From a virus: DNA of 39,568 nucleotides. The stretch's first letter is position 1. The number at the start of each line of letters is the position of its first letter. Of this stretch, positions 6,019-25,192 are shown piece by piece. The stretch spans positions 1 through 39,568 of IMG/VR virus record IMGVR_UViG_3300050821_006249; one strand, written 5' to 3'. The translations under genes were made by a program, and so were the position numbers. The notes under the pieces are model-generated. The model was not told the DNA's origin. It did no database searches and worked only from the letters and a program-made list of their open reading frames with translations.

Positions 6019-7593
6019 TCAAGTCTTCCCTTTATATGCCTTCTGTCTCAATCTATCGATTTTATGCGAGTGAGACATCATTCTTCTGGCAGTATCATCA
6101 TATTCCTTTTGACGACTTTTCAAGATTGCACTATTTGGCAATGCAAAAGTAAGCGCTAACGCGTCTCCTTCATCAGGACTACGCACACTACGCTTTTTCA
6201 TCTCTTGCTTAGATTCCATTTTGATGCGATCATTATAATCTGTACGATATTTAATACCGCATAAATCAGAGTGCAATGAATCATTATCAGGTATTGTGCA
6301 AGGAAAGTCTAGTAACCACTCTTTCATCAAGCCCCACATTTCAGCGCGCTTATTAAAATAAACCTTTTGATTAAGTGGTGTATTGCTACTATTGACTGCT
6401 ACTACAACATCCTTATGACCTAACTCTACCAATCTATCGTAGATACCGGCGCCTAAACCTCCCACATCGATACACACTTTATCTGGCTGCTCATCAACAA
6501 TAATACGATGGATGATACCTACAACCTCCATTGTGTTTTTTTTCTTATAACTTTGTAGGTTATAAGCAACACGGGTCTTTCTACGTATAATTGATGTTCT
6601 ATCGTCTCCATAACGTGCAGGGTCTACTCCAATGATTAAAGAACCATACGGCTCAGCAATATTACATTTCCTTGCTATCATGACAGTATTAGTAGATAAG
6701 AAATTGTCATCACCGCTTAATTGGAATGCTTCTGTAGGATTGCAAGGATATTCTTGCATGAAAGCTTTTAAACCATCTTGACCTTGAGTAGACAAAGCAA
6801 CGATCTTTGATCTACGCCAAGCTAATTGCTCCGGATATAGGTTATACAATTCGGATAATGATTTTTCCTCTTCGGTTATCTTAAAATCTTCTGGTAGGTC
6901 TTTTTGATATTCTTCTTGCCAATACCATGGCAAGAATATAGGTATAAAATCGGATGCACCAGATTCCGCTAATTGATATTGTTCATGGAAGTAATTTCCT
7001 ACCCCATTCGCTGTCGATTCAATAAATATCTCTGTCCCTCTTTCATCAGGAACCGCTTGCAATATTCCTTTTGCATGACCGGCAGCATTTGGCCAATATC
7101 CTACTTCTGAACCATGCAATAATTGAATAGTAGCAGAACGACCTACGTCTTTATTACCAGCCGTCCCTAATTTATAACCAGAGTCCAATCCTGCAAAGCT
7201 AAGTTCTTTTGCATTACTAGCCTCAATTTGTGGTTGAACAGCAACAGGACAGTATTGATGATAACGTTGTGCCATCTCAAACAGGTTATTTGTAGCATCA
7301 ATGTGATGAGTGAGAATAAAAGCCTGCATACCGCGTTGATGGGTCACAAGCCAATAAAAGCGGCCTTCAATGTAAGTAGAGCATCCTTGCTGGCGTCCTT
7401 TAACAATGATTACCCTTACTTTGCCAGTTTCACGCTTTTGCTGTTCGACTTTATCATTTAAATATCTCTGTATCCTATTAAATACAAGATTACTTATCTC
7501 ACCTGATTTTTTACGCACCTTCAAACACTTCGAAGCATAAAAATCAAAGTTATCTCGTAACCTTATGCGAATCCTTCGTTCTACTGCATCCAT
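6019..7593 (-). CDS. Terminase large subunit (ATPase-nuclease)
   Basis: 524 residues. The packaging motor protein: an N-terminal ATPase and C-terminal RNase H-like nuclease that cuts the concatemer. Visible motifs are a Walker A variant VKGRQQGCST (residues 64-73), the acidic SEVGYW motif (162-167), the coupling motif ESTANG (192-197), and nuclease acidic centres GVDPARYGDD (322-331), CIDVGG (374-379) and DEGDAL (474-479). The length is usual for the family. The ribosome site is weak (GAGAG). The portal follows it. Confidence 0.93.
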   Translation of the reverse strand: MDAVERRIRIRLRDNFDFYASKCLKVRKKSGEISNLVFNRIQRYLNDKVEQQKRETGKVRVIIVKGRQQGCSTYIEGRFYWLVTHQRGMQAFILTHHIDATNNLFEMAQRYHQYCPVAVQPQIEASNAKELSFAGLDSGYKLGTAGNKDVGRSATIQLLHGSEVGYWPNAAGHAKGILQAVPDERGTEIFIESTANGVGNYFHEQYQLAESGASDFIPIFLPWYWQEEYQKDLPEDFKITEEEKSLSELYNLYPEQLAWRRSKIVALSTQGQDGLKAFMQEYPCNPTEAFQLSGDDNFLSTNTVMIARKCNIAEPYGSLIIGVDPARYGDDRTSIIRRKTRVAYNLQSYKKKNTMEVVGIIHRIIVDEQPDKVCIDVGGLGAGIYDRLVELGHKDVVVAVNSSNTPLNQKVYFNKRAEMWGLMKEWLLDFPCTIPDNDSLHSDLCGIKYRTDYNDRIKMESKQEMKKRSVRSPDEGDALALTFALPNSAILKSRQKEYDDTARRMMSHSHKIDRLRQKAYKGKT

Positions 7594-7617: not shown

Positions 7618-7974
7618 TCATGGTAATTCTGGCAAATACATAAAGTAAGTAATTTTGTTAAGATAACGAGTAATACTAGGAATTTTATTTCTAGCAGATG
7701 AATAAGTTAAAATAGCATATTCTTTTCCATCTGTTACTAAAATAGATTCTTTTTTAGCTTTATATTTACAAAATTCTATCCAATTTTTATCTAATTTTTT
7801 AGGTAATTTAGCCCAATATTTAGGTAAACTAATATTTCTGCATCTACCAAACTTAATAAATGGAATGCTATTGTATAAAATAATAGGAGTTACACCAAAA
7901 TTCTTGCCATCAGTCAAAATAACATCTTTATTATGAGGAGGCCACGAAGAAGATATTGATATCCACTCAATCAT
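7618..7974 (-). CDS. Tandem DUF551-like protein
   Basis: 118 residues with two copies of one motif: EWISISSSWPPHNKDVILTD at the start and NWIEFCKYKAKKESILVTDG near residue 64, each followed by strands and an aromatic-Pro ending (YWAKLP, MYLPELP). This is the W-I-x-V ... P....VL.....W..LP layout of the DUF551 family, small proteins common in phage accessory arrays. Function unknown. A single-unit relative lies at 8345-8611. The start has AGGA 5-6 bases upstream. Confidence 0.65.
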   Translation of the reverse strand: MIEWISISSSWPPHNKDVILTDGKNFGVTPIILYNSIPFIKFGRCRNISLPKYWAKLPKKLDKNWIEFCKYKAKKESILVTDGKEYAILTYSSARNKIPSITRYLNKITYFMYLPELP

Positions 7975-8344: not shown

Positions 8345-8611
8345 TTAAGTAATTGCGTATTCCTTTTTAATATAATCCTCTGATGGGGAAGGATAAAACT
8401 CAGGCTCTTTCATCCAGTGAGTGACTTTTATAGTTTCAATTCCAAAATTATGTTTACTATCAATAAAACACCAATTCCTTTCCATATAACTAAAATAAGC
8501 AAAATAATAACAAATTTCATCTTTGAAAATAGCTCTAACAATAACTTTTAAAAACTCAGGTGGCATGTACTCATTAACATCTATCCAGGTGGCTTGAGGA
8601 TTAATCATCAT
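8345..8611 (-). CDS. DUF551-like protein
   Basis: 88 residues. ATWIDVNEYMPPEFLKVIVR at the start and VTHWMKEPEFYP near the end fit the DUF551 layout (W-I-x-V near the N-terminus, strands, then a THW.P motif). Function unknown. It overlaps the upstream gene by 11 bases; GGAG lies just ahead of two adjacent ATGs (8611 and 8608). Confidence 0.65.
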   Translation of the reverse strand: MMINPQATWIDVNEYMPPEFLKVIVRAIFKDEICYYFAYFSYMERNWCFIDSKHNFGIETIKVTHWMKEPEFYPSPSEDYIKKEYAIT

Positions 8612-8732
8612 GATTCTCCAACATTTCATTTAATACTTTCGTAAACTCATGCGATGGGTCTTTTTGATTAGATAGTAATTTCTGATAAAAATCTGAGATA
8701 ACATTCTCAAATTCAGTGTCTTTTTCAGGCAT
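8601..8732 (-). CDS. Small acidic hypothetical protein
   Basis: 43 residues beginning MPEKDTEFENVISDFYQKLL and ending in ENHDD; predicted helical. Its ATG overlaps the stop of the 340-aa gene as TAATG, and a GGAG lies about 12 bases upstream. Not recognised. Confidence 0.55.
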   Translation of the reverse strand: MPEKDTEFENVISDFYQKLLSNQKDPSHEFTKVLNEMLENHDD

Positions 8733-9754
8733 TATGGAAAGCTCCTATAGTTCCAATGCTCTATTGCTCTTTCTTTACTATCTCTTTCACCACTATCTGA
8801 ACCACACTTTGGACATCTAATATAATAAGAATAATCATGCATTGGATTTTGAGTAATATAACAATCCTCACACCGACAGAACGGACAAGGCAGCAGTTTT
8901 GGTTCTTTATCTTTCTCTAAATTTTTTAATACTATTTCAGACATCCATTTGAAAAATGGTTTTTGCTCACTTTTATAAAATTTTTCCTTTTTAACTAGCT
9001 TTTTTAGATGCTTAACGTTTATATTTACATCATCTACAGTGGCAATTGTTGTACCATGTTCCATCACTGTAATTTTATTAATAGTTCCTTTGAACCCATT
9101 TAAATATCTTAATTCTTCACAATCGCAATTAGATTGCTTGAAGATAACACGATCTCCCACCTTAAACTCAATCTTTTTCTTAACTAACTTTTTAAGGTGA
9201 TCGGTATTTATAATAAATGCTTCCAGTTTTGCAAATCCTGAATGCCAATCATCAATTAAAACTTCTGCTAATTCTCCTTTATGAGTTAAATCTACTATAC
9301 GTCCTTTTTTTCCTATCATAGAACCACCTTTGAGGATAACTCTATCATTGATATTGAACTGAGGTTTTTTCTTTACTAGCTTTTTTACATACTGACATTT
9401 AGATTTTCGATAATTAATGGGAAAAAATCCATAATGTCCTTCATCGAACTCCACATAATAGTCTTGACCGTGATAATTATTATGCAAAATAGTACCTTTC
9501 TGTTTTTTACCATCTATTTGAATAACACACCTATCGCCCACTTCAAATTTAATAGGCTTCTTCACAAGCTTTCGGCATTGTTGTGAATGTATCCATTCCT
9601 CATGTGAAGATATTCCACGAAAATTATCAAACCTTATTTTCAATAAAATTGTATCTTTTTGAGAAGCGCCATCTTCTACAACTTTTCCTCTCAATGGTTC
9701 ATTAGACATAAATGAAGCATAAACATTAACTCTATCCCCTATTTTGAAATACAT
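8732..9754 (-). CDS. Four tandem KOW/SH3-like repeats fused to a Lar-like zinc ribbon
   Basis: 340 residues. Four units of about 63 residues (1-66, 67-129, 130-193, 194-256) each begin with a [FK].[IV][GN]DRV motif, continue as beta strands, and end in (K/R)KLVKK. This is the pattern of small SH3-like barrels (KOW or Mib-herc2-like). After a linker, residues 285-340 form a zinc ribbon with Cys290, Cys293, Cys314 and Cys317 followed by AIEHWNYRS, the ending of Lar (restriction alleviation) proteins. I know no described protein with this architecture. Binding of nucleic acid or a host enzyme is inference. TAATG coupling on both sides. Confidence 0.7.
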   Translation of the reverse strand: MYFKIGDRVNVYASFMSNEPLRGKVVEDGASQKDTILLKIRFDNFRGISSHEEWIHSQQCRKLVKKPIKFEVGDRCVIQIDGKKQKGTILHNNYHGQDYYVEFDEGHYGFFPINYRKSKCQYVKKLVKKKPQFNINDRVILKGGSMIGKKGRIVDLTHKGELAEVLIDDWHSGFAKLEAFIINTDHLKKLVKKKIEFKVGDRVIFKQSNCDCEELRYLNGFKGTINKITVMEHGTTIATVDDVNINVKHLKKLVKKEKFYKSEQKPFFKWMSEIVLKNLEKDKEPKLLPCPFCRCEDCYITQNPMHDYSYYIRCPKCGSDSGERDSKERAIEHWNYRSFP

Positions 9755-9963
9755 TACTTTTTCTCCTTTTCTATTATCTTTATCAACGGTGATTCAACAA
9801 TCTCATGTATAAAATCATCATTATCAACCTGGATTCTTAATAACTGAAATGATGGCTCATCCTCTACTATATGAGGACGCTCTAAACGTTCTATAACAGT
9901 TCCTGTATATTCTTTATCATCTCCCTGCCAGATATAGGAAACTCTATCACCTACTTTGAACAT
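9754..9963 (-). CDS. Single KOW/SH3-like domain protein
   Basis: 69 residues beginning MFKVGDRVSYIWQGDDKEYT, with strands and a Lys-rich end (IKIIEKEKK). It is a single copy of the unit repeated four times in the next gene, and is translationally coupled to it by TAATG. This suggests growth of the larger gene by duplication of such a unit. Confidence 0.62.
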   Translation of the reverse strand: MFKVGDRVSYIWQGDDKEYTGTVIERLERPHIVEDEPSFQLLRIQVDNDDFIHEIVESPLIKIIEKEKK

Positions 9964-9973
9964 GATTCTTCCT

Positions 9974-10171
9974 CTAAACTATCTTTTGTGGATAATATAT
10001 GTTATGTAACATTTCAATAATCCCTTCTTTGAAAACTTTGCATACTGAATCAAAATCTTGTAAAGCATCTTCATGAATAAGTAAATATGAAGACTTATTA
10101 TTTATTTCCATCTCAATTCTAATATGGTCACCTTGAAATTTATATCCTTTTAATTTAAAATTCTTAATCAT
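9974..10171 (-). CDS. Hypothetical protein
   Basis: 65 residues (MIKNFKLKGYKFQGDHIRIE onward), alternating strands then a helix with an Asp/Lys-rich face, ending YPQKIV. Overlaps the upstream gene by ATGA. Resembles in layout the 88-aa neighbour at 10562-10828 (strands followed by a helix), but I cannot name a family. Confidence 0.55.
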   Translation of the reverse strand: MIKNFKLKGYKFQGDHIRIEMEINNKSSYLLIHEDALQDFDSVCKVFKEGIIEMLHNIYYPQKIV

Positions 10172-10374
10172 TTTCTACTATTCCACGATCGTATGAGCCA
10201 TTCTTTGTTGTAATTATTTAATAGATGAACTGCTGTTTGAATAGAGCAGTGATTGCTAATGCATTTTATTTGGATTGTTTCTTTAGTTGCAGAAACATCA
10301 AAAATTATCTTTGCATCACTAAGGCAGCATGGACATGGTAGTAATAAAATATCTGATTTATCTTCAATATTCAT
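10168..10374 (-). CDS. Lar-like zinc ribbon protein
   Basis: 68 residues. LLLPCPCCLSDAKI near residue 10, a second Cys pair around residues 38-43, and an ending WLIRSWNSR match the Lar (restriction alleviation) family layout: CPxC, C..C, then [AE]...WN.R. Lar of the Rac prophage modulates the EcoKI type I system; a role against host restriction is inference. Coupled by ATGA with its neighbours. Confidence 0.62.
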   Translation of the reverse strand: MNIEDKSDILLLPCPCCLSDAKIIFDVSATKETIQIKCISNHCSIQTAVHLLNNYNKEWLIRSWNSRK

Positions 10375-10562
10375 TAATATACCCTCATACTATAATTTTC
10401 TATTAGCATTTTTTCATTTATTTTTTTTGGTAAAACAGTAGTAATCTTACATTCATAACAAGTTATTATTCTTATAAAATAAGAATTTCGTTTTTGCAGA
10501 AAAGCTAAGTTTCCACAAAGTGGACATGGCAAAATATGATCTTTTTTATCACCGATAGTCAT
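10374..10562 (-). CDS. Small zinc ribbon protein, Lar-like
   Basis: 62 residues with HILPCPLCGNLAFLQKRN near residue 9 and TCYEC near residue 34: two Cys pairs for one zinc. It is shorter at the end than its neighbour at 10168 and lacks the WN.R ending. It is the third zinc ribbon of this type in the cluster. Confidence 0.58.
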   Translation of the reverse strand: MTIGDKKDHILPCPLCGNLAFLQKRNSYFIRIITCYECKITTVLPKKINEKMLIENYSMRVY

Positions 10563-11398: not shown

Positions 11399-11860
11399 TT
11401 AATCTTCAAAACCCTTCAACTCTTTAATTGCCTGTTCATGCAATGTTAAAGTAGTTTCGTTTTGAATGCGATCGCCATAGATACGTGGTTCCAATCTAGC
11501 AGCTACCCATTTTCTAGTGTCAATTCTTAACCGTGAACGATTAACATGCTCATTGTTACAAACTAATTTACCGTTATCATTTACAATATTATCATTTGTT
11601 GTATCATCAGAAATATCTAGCATTTGATCTACTAATAATTCAACTTGATCTCTTTTAGCTTTTCGATACATATCGCCGAAAGATGGTATTTTTATGCGCC
11701 ATTCGTATATAGTTTGATGACAAGGCCAGTGAGGATAACTTTTACAAAGTCGTTGTAATCCTTTATCAGAAGTAGAAAGTTTTAAGCAAATTTCTTCGCC
11801 TAACTCTTGTGTATAGTCAGCAGAAACAGGAGGCCTTCCAATACGATTAGATGTCGTCAT
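11399..11860 (-). CDS. Terminase small subunit
   Basis: 153 residues. The DNA-recognition partner of the large terminase. GRPPVSADYTQELGEEICLK leads into helix-turn-helix-like helices (QTIYEWRIKIPSF), and the segment RLRIDTRKWVAARLEPRIYG near residue 120 is characteristic of the Sf6-type small terminase family. Start at 11860 has GGAGG 7-8 bases upstream and overlaps the preceding gene by 14 bases; the longer frame from 11908 lacks a site. The large terminase lies almost 4 kb downstream, separated by small accessory genes, where the two are usually adjacent. Confidence 0.82.
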   Translation of the reverse strand: MTTSNRIGRPPVSADYTQELGEEICLKLSTSDKGLQRLCKSYPHWPCHQTIYEWRIKIPSFGDMYRKAKRDQVELLVDQMLDISDDTTNDNIVNDNGKLVCNNEHVNRSRLRIDTRKWVAARLEPRIYGDRIQNETTLTLHEQAIKELKGFED

Positions 11861-12059
11861 CAATAATTCCTCCGCTTCGTTTTTTATATTTTCTTTTCGG
11901 TTGGTCAATCATTTCGTTTACTTGTTCATCGCTGAATTCGTGATGATGCACGTAAATTTCGACTTTGCCTGTTCCTTCACAGCTAGGACAATTTTTAACG
12001 ATACGATTTTCATCAATCAATTTACCGCCTCCTAGACAAGGCTTGCATTTCTGTAGCAT
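11847..12059 (-). CDS. DnaJ-type zinc finger protein
   Basis: 70 residues. KCKPCLGGGKLI and KNCPSCEGTGKVEI are two CxxC-x-GxG motifs as in the DnaJ cysteine-rich domain, so one zinc site. A basic tail with PKRKYKKRSGG follows. First gene of the minus-strand packaging operon, coupled to the small terminase by overlap. Similar mini-DnaJ zinc proteins are common in phages; function not established. Confidence 0.68.
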   Translation of the reverse strand: MLQKCKPCLGGGKLIDENRIVKNCPSCEGTGKVEIYVHHHEFSDEQVNEMIDQPKRKYKKRSGGIIDDDI

Positions 12060-18057: not shown

Positions 18058-18861
18058 ATGACTCCAGGAATTTATGATATCGAAAACGAAGATTATCACA
18101 ATTCAGAGGGTTTAAGTAGAAGTGCTTTAATGAAGTTTAAGATTTCACCTTTGCATTATTGGAGCGAATATAAAAAAGAAGGGCGGAAAAAAGAAACTAA
18201 TACACCAGCTTTAATACTAGGAAATGCTGTGCATACCTATATTTTACAGCCAGAAGAATTTGACGAATATTATTGTGTATCAGAAAAACCAGATCAAAGA
18301 ACGACAAAAGGTAAAGAAGATTGGGCAGAAATACAACATAATAATAGAGGTAAAATTATTATCTCAACCGCAGTTTATGAAGAAGTACAGAAATTAGGAA
18401 GGGCTTTTTTAACTCATGAGCTTGCTAAGAAATTTCTAGTAGGCGTTCAGGTAGAAAAGTCTGTTTTCTGGAAAGATAGTAAAACTAATATTCTATGCAA
18501 AGCTCGTCCTGATATTTGGCTACAGAATATAATTGCAGATATAAAAACAACTAATGATGCGTCACCGCGGTCATTTCAACGAGATATAATGAAATATGGT
18601 TATCATATCCAGGCAGCAATGGTGCAAGATGGTATCTATCATGTCACTAAAAAGATGATAGAAACTTTTGTTTTTATTGCTATTGAAAAGGAGGAACCTT
18701 ATGCTATCGGCATTTATGAATTAGACAAGGAATCAATTCAAAAGGGTCGGGAAGAGTATAAGGCATTGTTAGATGATTACATTCCTTATCAAGATAAAGA
18801 TGTCAAAATATGGCCTGGATATAAACCAACTGTAATTTCACTACCAGCTTATTATTACTAG
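18058..18861 (+). CDS. PD-(D/E)XK exonuclease, RecE/DUF3799-like
   Basis: 267 residues. Digests one strand of double-stranded ends for single-strand annealing recombination. YHNSEGLSRSALMKFKISPL is the usual N-terminus, GNAVHT (residues 55-60) supplies the conserved His, Glu133 follows, then the core ARPDIW (149-154) and ADIKTT (160-165; D..K), and HIQAAMVQDG (183-192) with the conserved Gln. The length is typical. The annealing protein follows after one gene, forming a Red-like pair. GGGAGG precedes the start. Confidence 0.85.
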   Translation: MTPGIYDIENEDYHNSEGLSRSALMKFKISPLHYWSEYKKEGRKKETNTPALILGNAVHTYILQPEEFDEYYCVSEKPDQRTTKGKEDWAEIQHNNRGKIIISTAVYEEVQKLGRAFLTHELAKKFLVGVQVEKSVFWKDSKTNILCKARPDIWLQNIIADIKTTNDASPRSFQRDIMKYGYHIQAAMVQDGIYHVTKKMIETFVFIAIEKEEPYAIGIYELDKESIQKGREEYKALLDDYIPYQDKDVKIWPGYKPTVISLPAYYY

Positions 18862-23684: not shown

Positions 23685-23966
23685 ATGAAAGATGAATTTA
23701 AAGAGTTAACAAAAAAATTAAATAGCAAGCTTGTAGAAACCACTGTTAATTTTATTAAAGAAAATGTTAAAGAAGATAAAGAAATATACTTAAATGATTT
23801 TCTAAATTTAATATTAAGCTCTCATATTTCCTCTATATATAATAATTTATTGCATTTAACAGAAATGTTTGAAGCTCCACAAGAACCTATTGATATTTTA
23901 ATGAATAAAATACTTTTCTCAATAGAAGATTTTGATCTTATTGAATATAAAGGAGATAAACATTAA
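23685..23966 (+). CDS. Small helical paralogue 4
   Basis: 93 residues (MKDEFKELTKKLNSKLVETT onward). Core YLNDFLNLILSSHISSIYNN and acidic end follow the same plan as paralogues 1-3, but it is the most divergent. AGAGGAAA precedes the ATG. Its stop overlaps the RtcB start as TAATG. Confidence 0.58.
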   Translation: MKDEFKELTKKLNSKLVETTVNFIKENVKEDKEIYLNDFLNLILSSHISSIYNNLLHLTEMFEAPQEPIDILMNKILFSIEDFDLIEYKGDKH

Positions 23967-25192
23967 TGCGCGTATTTGAAGGAAAAAATGTCCCAATAAA
24001 AGCTTGGATAGATTATGTTGATATTGAAGATCAAGCTCTTCAACAACTCGTTAATTTATCAAGTATGCCATTTATATATAAGCATGTTGCAGCGATGCCA
24101 GATGTTCACTGGGGAATGGGTGCTACTATCGGAAGCGTTATAGCTACTGAAAAAGCTATTATTCCTGCTGCGGTTGGTGTTGATATTGGTTGCGGCATGA
24201 TGGCTGTTAAAACACCTTTAAATGCTAATGATTTACCAGATAATCTTTTTGATATTCGATCAAAAATAGAAGCTGCCGTTCCTCACGGTAGAACTAATCA
24301 AGGTGGTGATGGTGATAGAGGTGCTTGGCATAATATACATCCATTAGGTGAATTAAGTTTTCTATTGATGAAAGAAGAATACGAATCAATAATAGAAAAA
24401 TATCCTTTATTAAAACCAAAGAAAAACCCTGCTCATCATTTAGGTACGCTTGGGACTGGTAATCATTTTATAGAAATATGTTTAGATCAAAATCAAGATG
24501 TATGGGTAATGCTTCATAGTGGAAGTAGAGGAATTGGTAATAAAATAGGAGTTTTTTTCATTAGTAAGGCAAAAGAAGAAATGCAAAAATACTATATAGA
24601 TAAACATATATCCGATATAGACTTATCTTATCTAGTAGAACATACAGAAATTTTTGATGATTATATAAAAGCTGTTAATTGGGCGCAAAAGTTTGCATTC
24701 GAAAATAGAGTTATAATGATGAGTAATATTATTGGGATTTTATCAGAAAGTTTTCCTGATAAAATTTTTGAATATCATACATTTGAAACAGCAATAAATT
24801 GTCATCACAACTATGTTGAGAAAGAAAGACACTTCGGTAAAAATGTATGGCTTACCCGTAAAGGTGCTGTTAGAGCCAGAAAAGATGATTTAGGTATTAT
24901 ACCTGGTTCCATGGGTGCAAAAAGCTTTATAGTTAGAGGTAAAGGAAATTTAGAAAGTTTTCATTCATGTTCTCATGGAGCGGGTCGTTCAATGGGTCGT
25001 AATGAAGCTAAAAAGCGTTTTACATTAGAAGATCATATAAAAGCCACAGAAGGCGTTGAATGCAGAAAAGATCAAGATGTTATTGATGAAACACCAATGG
25101 CTTATAAAGATATCGATAATGTAATGAAATCTCAAGAGGATTTAGTTGATATTATCTATACATTAAAGCAAGTTGTTTGTATAAAGGGGTAA
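23966..25192 (+). CDS. rtcB: RNA-splicing ligase RtcB
   Basis: 408 residues, exactly the length of E. coli RtcB. Joins 2',3'-cyclic phosphate (or 3'-phosphate) and 5'-OH RNA ends using GTP and Mn2+. Visible motifs: PDVHWGMG (45-52), VDIGCGM with metal-binding Cys76 (72-78), GTGNHFIE with His167, LHSGSRGIG with His184, CHHNYVE (279-285), IIPGSMG, and CSHGAGRSMGR whose His337 matches the guanylylated His of E. coli RtcB. No intein or gap. A plausible job is re-joining tRNAs cut by host anticodon nucleases. Confidence 0.93.
   Translation: MRVFEGKNVPIKAWIDYVDIEDQALQQLVNLSSMPFIYKHVAAMPDVHWGMGATIGSVIATEKAIIPAAVGVDIGCGMMAVKTPLNANDLPDNLFDIRSKIEAAVPHGRTNQGGDGDRGAWHNIHPLGELSFLLMKEEYESIIEKYPLLKPKKNPAHHLGTLGTGNHFIEICLDQNQDVWVMLHSGSRGIGNKIGVFFISKAKEEMQKYYIDKHISDIDLSYLVEHTEIFDDYIKAVNWAQKFAFENRVIMMSNIIGILSESFPDKIFEYHTFETAINCHHNYVEKERHFGKNVWLTRKGAVRARKDDLGIIPGSMGAKSFIVRGKGNLESFHSCSHGAGRSMGRNEAKKRFTLEDHIKATEGVECRKDQDVIDETPMAYKDIDNVMKSQEDLVDIIYTLKQVVCIKG

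Follow-up and report, generated by a model that had tools for sequence, protein, structure and literature searches.

Four SH3/KOW-like repeats fused to a Lar-type zinc ribbon in a phage protein: a possible binding arm for nucleic acid or host machinery

What could a phage gain from placing a small zinc ribbon of the Lar family at the end of a long array of repeats? This question is raised by a single gene (8732-9754, minus strand) of the virus record IMGVR_UViG_3300050821_006249, which was analyzed over its whole length of 39,568 bases (referred to as the window). The first 97 bases of the window are identical to its last 97, and it is therefore probably a complete genome. This uncultured tailed phage encodes a P22-like portal, a large and a small terminase, and head-closure genes. 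A gammaproteobacterial host is suggested, since the nearest cultured relatives of the large terminase belong to a Pseudoalteromonas phage (51% identity) and a Vibrio phage (46%). The gene in question sits among small minus-strand ORFs in the stretch that separates the small terminase (11399-11908) from the large terminase (6019-7593). It is preceded by AGGAG, and its ATG overlaps the stop of the preceding ORF as TAATG. The encoded protein of 340 residues was divided by ORF reading and profiles into four SH3/KOW-like repeats, a linker, and a Lar ribbon, and profiles, structure prediction, and fold search agree on this fusion, which the original prediction had proposed from the letters alone.

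The repeats are 63 to 66 residues long (about 64) and follow each other directly on the minus strand as residues 1-66 (repeat 1, 9557-9754), 67-129 (repeat 2, 9368-9556), 130-193 (repeat 3, 9176-9367), and 194-256 (repeat 4, 8987-9175). Their kinship was assessed by leaving out one window repeat at a time and scoring it with a profile of the other eight, five of which come from a homologue on another viral contig (L083, described below), with 1000 shuffled sequences as the control. The left-out repeats reached 19.6 to 40.1 bits, compared to 10.5 to 11.9 bits for the best shuffles (20.8 versus 11.9 for repeat 1, 19.6 versus 11.2 for repeat 2, 31.6 versus 10.7 for repeat 3, and 40.1 versus 10.5 for repeat 4), and the kinship of the four is thus beyond chance. 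The profile of the five L083 repeats alone also retrieved the window ORF among 11,205 ORFs (E 6e-8). When the repeat ends were included, all pairs of the four were significantly similar, while the cores alone were mostly not, indicating that the similarity is concentrated at the ends and that the cores have diverged. All four repeats close with KLVKK, as originally described; the expected start of GDRV or NDRV holds for three of them (GDRV, NDRV, and GDRV in repeats 1, 3, and 4), with repeat 2 starting GDRC.

The SH3-like fold assumed for the repeats was borne out by structure prediction. Repeat 3, modeled with the nine repeats as alignment, gave five strands at a pLDDT of 88 and a pTM of 0.73, and the predicted models display a five-stranded SH3-like or KOW barrel with a 3-10 turn before the last strand. 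In the full-length model (mean pLDDT 70), all four repeats have a similar, barrel-type strand order with a short turn ahead of the last strand, and the linker of about 28 residues (257-285, 8900-8986, minus strand) contains a low-confidence predicted helix (265-278). The pTM of this model was 0.30, and the mutual placement of the domains is therefore not fixed by it. In a Foldseek search with the model of repeat 3, NusG ranked first (E 2.4e-4). VIA returned a Z of 10.1 to Thermotoga NusG over 56 of the 64 residues, at 1.6 A, and a Z of 9.9 to Spt5 KOW domains, although many rows were tied and this small fold is common. Searched against solved structures, the whole model found Spt5 KOW arrays first (E 3.6e-10) at TM-scores of about 0.13-0.16 (query length), which are low because the relative domain placement is not fixed; the Tudor arrays of SETDB1 and Spindlin were matched as well, and among viral structure models several tailed-phage proteins matched the whole model. 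On the sequence level, the KOW motif PF00467 scored 12.4 bits (cut-off 22.3), a Pfam scan of the protein at E up to 5 held no NGN domain match, and a PDB sequence search with the repeats returned nothing better than E above 0.1. In 299 Pseudomonadota, the repeat profile matched only two kinds of domain, the C-terminus of a UvrD-type helicase (E about 7e-4 to 8e-4) and a beta domain of the MscS type (E 5.7e-4), both names being assigned by eye, and we take both to be SH3/Tudor-like or Sm-like folds.

Lar proteins are common in phages. Here, the C-terminal 55 residues (286-340, 8735-8899, minus strand) exceed the cut-offs of both Lar models, with 45.9 bits for PF14354 (cut-off 28.6) and 40.6 bits for TIGR03655 (cut-off 39.6), and they are matched by phrog_599 (E 6e-13). 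The translation contains both CPxC knuckles (C290/C293 and C314/C317) and, at W334-N-Y-R337, the WN.R ending that had been noted before. The score for the RalR equivalog (NF007260) was 22.9 bits, far under the cut-off of 113. RalR, a Lar-family protein of the Rac prophage, was the only one with a tested activity in the literature found, which is sparse on Lar function; it is reported to cleave DNA in vitro (PMC4147584). The Ral protein of phage lambda is discussed in a review on restriction (PMC12707154).

Two stand-alone Lar-like ribbons lie upstream of the main gene on the same strand, one of 68 residues (10168-10374; phrog_599 E 5e-7; PF14354 E 2e-4, under the cut-off) and one of 62 residues (10374-10562; PF14354 E 2e-5, 25.2 bits, just under the cut-off of 28.6), so that three Lar-type ribbons are packed into about 2 kb of this phage. 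Directly upstream, an ORF of 69 residues (9754-9963, minus strand) had been regarded as a free single repeat unit. The ORF exists, and its stop and the main gene's start overlap in the TAATG; its kinship to the repeats is weak (11.0-13.0 bits versus 10.5-11.9 bits for shuffles), and with a pI of 4.8 and no KLVKK, this acidic protein is a possible divergent unit at most. Just downstream of the main gene, a DUF551 protein is encoded (8345-8629, minus strand; PF04448 26.5 bits, cut-off 22), and the ORF 7618-7974 more weakly matches phrog_924, a PHROG that this DUF551 protein matches, too. A 70-residue protein with CxxC pairs (11847-12059, minus strand) is encoded across the start of the small terminase ORF; it resembles the central zinc domain of DnaJ and that of Anti-TRAP, with scores under the Pfam cut-offs. 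Elsewhere, this 39.6-kb podovirus-like genome encodes an RtcB-type RNA ligase (23966-25192, plus strand; phrog_1075 E 1.6e-144) and an Exonuclease VIII-like protein (18058-18861, plus strand; phrog_412 E 8e-75).

The architecture had been called undescribed, and within the collections searched this held. By tblastn, neither 50,697 phage records nor 72,556 plasmids contained a second example of the array combined with Lar, and no other fusion was present among the ORFs read at 80 viral Lar loci (2 unparsed) or in the best-scoring matches of 398 Pseudomonadota genomes. Within the viral Lar survey, the repeats precede Lar only in a copy identical to the window protein. An alignment scan returned no Lar-array homologue, and the repeat profile had no match in 151 genomes of a second phylum, a result that carries no weight for lack of a positive control. 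When viral contigs were scanned with a degenerate DNA pattern of the repeat junctions, L083 was the only new true array. A looser pattern gave 50 stretches, all of which, except L002 and L083, belong to one long family resembling B-family DNA polymerase and were rejected; a third pattern had no matches, and junction-pattern matches in genome contigs were unrelated proteins as judged by eye. Since fixed spacing is required, such pattern scans may miss relatives. The L002 contig is identical to the window over 8,611 nt including the repeat-Lar gene, and it therefore represents the same phage and no independent support.

The L083 contig (IMGVR_UViG_3300010401_000017), by comparison, encodes a homologue of 426 residues (L083:441-1721, minus strand; blastp E 2e-16, 33% identity over 258 residues). 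Its repeats resemble those of the window, with junctions of KLVKK, KLRKK, or KLIKK, but they are five in number and are followed by another C-terminal region without a Pfam match instead of Lar. While the window has a P22-like portal, genes of L083 resemble tail sheath and baseplate genes by eye, and the contig would thus stem from a different phage of the contractile-tailed type. Because a different type of phage seems to carry a homologous array with another C-terminus, these sequences suggest that phages pass the array among one another and that its C-terminal parts can be swapped. By tblastn, the phage collection contained no match to the L083 protein up to an E of 5, and when viral contigs were scanned with this protein, only L083 itself and L002 came back. 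A 67-residue ORF near the five-repeat protein (L083 4486-4689, minus strand) resembles the carbon-storage regulator CsrA by eye.

With a pI of 9.27 and a net charge of +18, the 340-residue protein is basic, which favors contact with nucleic acid, while each repeat is near neutral once its closing KLVKK is removed. From the kinship of the repeats, their predicted fold, this charge, and the homologue, we infer a phage accessory protein in which the array serves as a multivalent binding arm for nucleic acid or host machinery and carries the Lar ribbon, a tentative reading to which we assign a probability of roughly 0.4. Through avidity, the barrels would hold on to nucleic acid or a nucleic-acid machine, with the KLVKK of their last strands carrying the bulk of the positive charge. 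The C-terminus would be an exchangeable effector, Lar in the window phage and a different region in the phage of L083, and the array would keep the ribbon at its site of action, on DNA or on a host complex, plausibly helping the phage genome that enters the cell to withstand a host nuclease. A version tethered in this way would give a handle on the site at which Lar works, and it would also show that KOW-like arrays are traded among phages as targeting modules. KLVKK could, however, be a structural strand instead of a binding surface, and just two phage lineages are known to carry the array. RNA, DNA, proteins, and peptides are all ligands of KOW and SH3-like folds. The fold alone does not decide the ligand, because KOW4 of Spt5 binds nucleic acids and KOW6-7 showed no such binding (PMC6076269). 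A more far-reaching version, in which a mobile KOW-like array, common to unrelated tailed phages, forms a class of adaptors with exchangeable effectors and delivers Lar to the transcribing polymerase or the entering genome, we hold to be unlikely.

The binding partner may also be sought more narrowly in the transcription or translation machinery, with the barrels docking on RNA polymerase, Rho, or ribosome partners as KOW domains of NusG and Spt5 or the C-terminal domains of UvrD do, and Lar adding an extra contact. NusG and Spt5 are indeed the top structural matches for the single repeat and the whole array, and a UvrD-type C-terminus is among the best profile matches, but the missing NusG N-terminal domain, the occurrence of this fold in many proteins of other function, and a possible preference of Foldseek for any solved tandem array leave this as a possible, though not a probable, explanation. 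A scaffold gathering host or phage proteins or peptides, as Tudor or SH3 domains do, would fit the matches to the SETDB1 and Spindlin arrays as well as the near-neutral repeat cores; considering that NusG and Spt5 rank higher and that no known ligand motif was identified, it seems unlikely. Somewhat further from the data lies a nuclease delivered by the repeats to host or competitor DNA. The DNase activity reported for RalR and the weak similarity of the C-terminus to the RalR model would speak for it, yet given the distance of that score from the cut-off, we regard this option as quite improbable.

Least convincing are two further readings. The original prediction had proposed a multi-site decoy for a host restriction or defense enzyme, an idea to which repeated units capable of binding several enzyme copies and the anti-restriction connotation of the Lar name lend some appeal. 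However, the only link of the main gene to restriction is this family name, no PADLOC defense model matched, and the charge points the other way: DNA-mimic antirestriction proteins of the Ocr and ArdA type are strongly acidic, the opposite of the basic protein found here. The decoy is thus without support and very improbable. Equally remote is a drifting accessory gene whose array and ribbon have no selected joint function. It would agree with the finding of the gene in one population only and with the lack of detection of the repeat protein in 78 other TerL-related loci, many of them short fragments, but not with an intact frame of 340 residues, both Cys pairs, the WNxR, and four conserved repeat ends. 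The binding arm that carries Lar thus remains our preferred reading.

Compared to known systems, the exact combination of a KOW-like array with Lar was not found elsewhere, and its parts belong to known kinds. Distant tandem SH3-like proteins are present in cultured phages; those of Pseudomonas phage ventosus have two or three GDxV-type units each (E about 2e-4 to 3e-4 in a small set and 2e-3 to 3e-3 in a larger set), and one of them exceeds the Ribosomal_L21e cut-off. CNR37_00110 of this phage (332 residues, 'putative ribosomal protein L21e') shares tandem GDxV-type SH3-like units with the window array, but its sequence similarity is very weak, and it has neither KLVKK nor Lar. In another ventosus protein (L283 35058-35828, plus strand), two such units precede a region with weak similarity to MazG (12.9 bits, cut-off 22), which may be a parallel case in which the units are fused to a different domain. 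With the Lar family of restriction alleviation proteins (TIGR03655 and PF14354, including RalR), the ribbon has the Cys pairs and the WNxR in common. Viral Lar proteins in the survey were mostly small or had Lar near the N-terminus, whereas Lar follows 285 residues here; L234 and L208 have long N-terminal parts, too, but of another sequence than the window repeats. Finally, although the main gene has no NGN domain, no identified Spt4 partner, and no sequence-level KOW membership, its repeats share their predicted barrel with the tandem KOW domains of Spt5 (DSIF) and the KOW domain of NusG, the best solved matches for the array and the single repeat.
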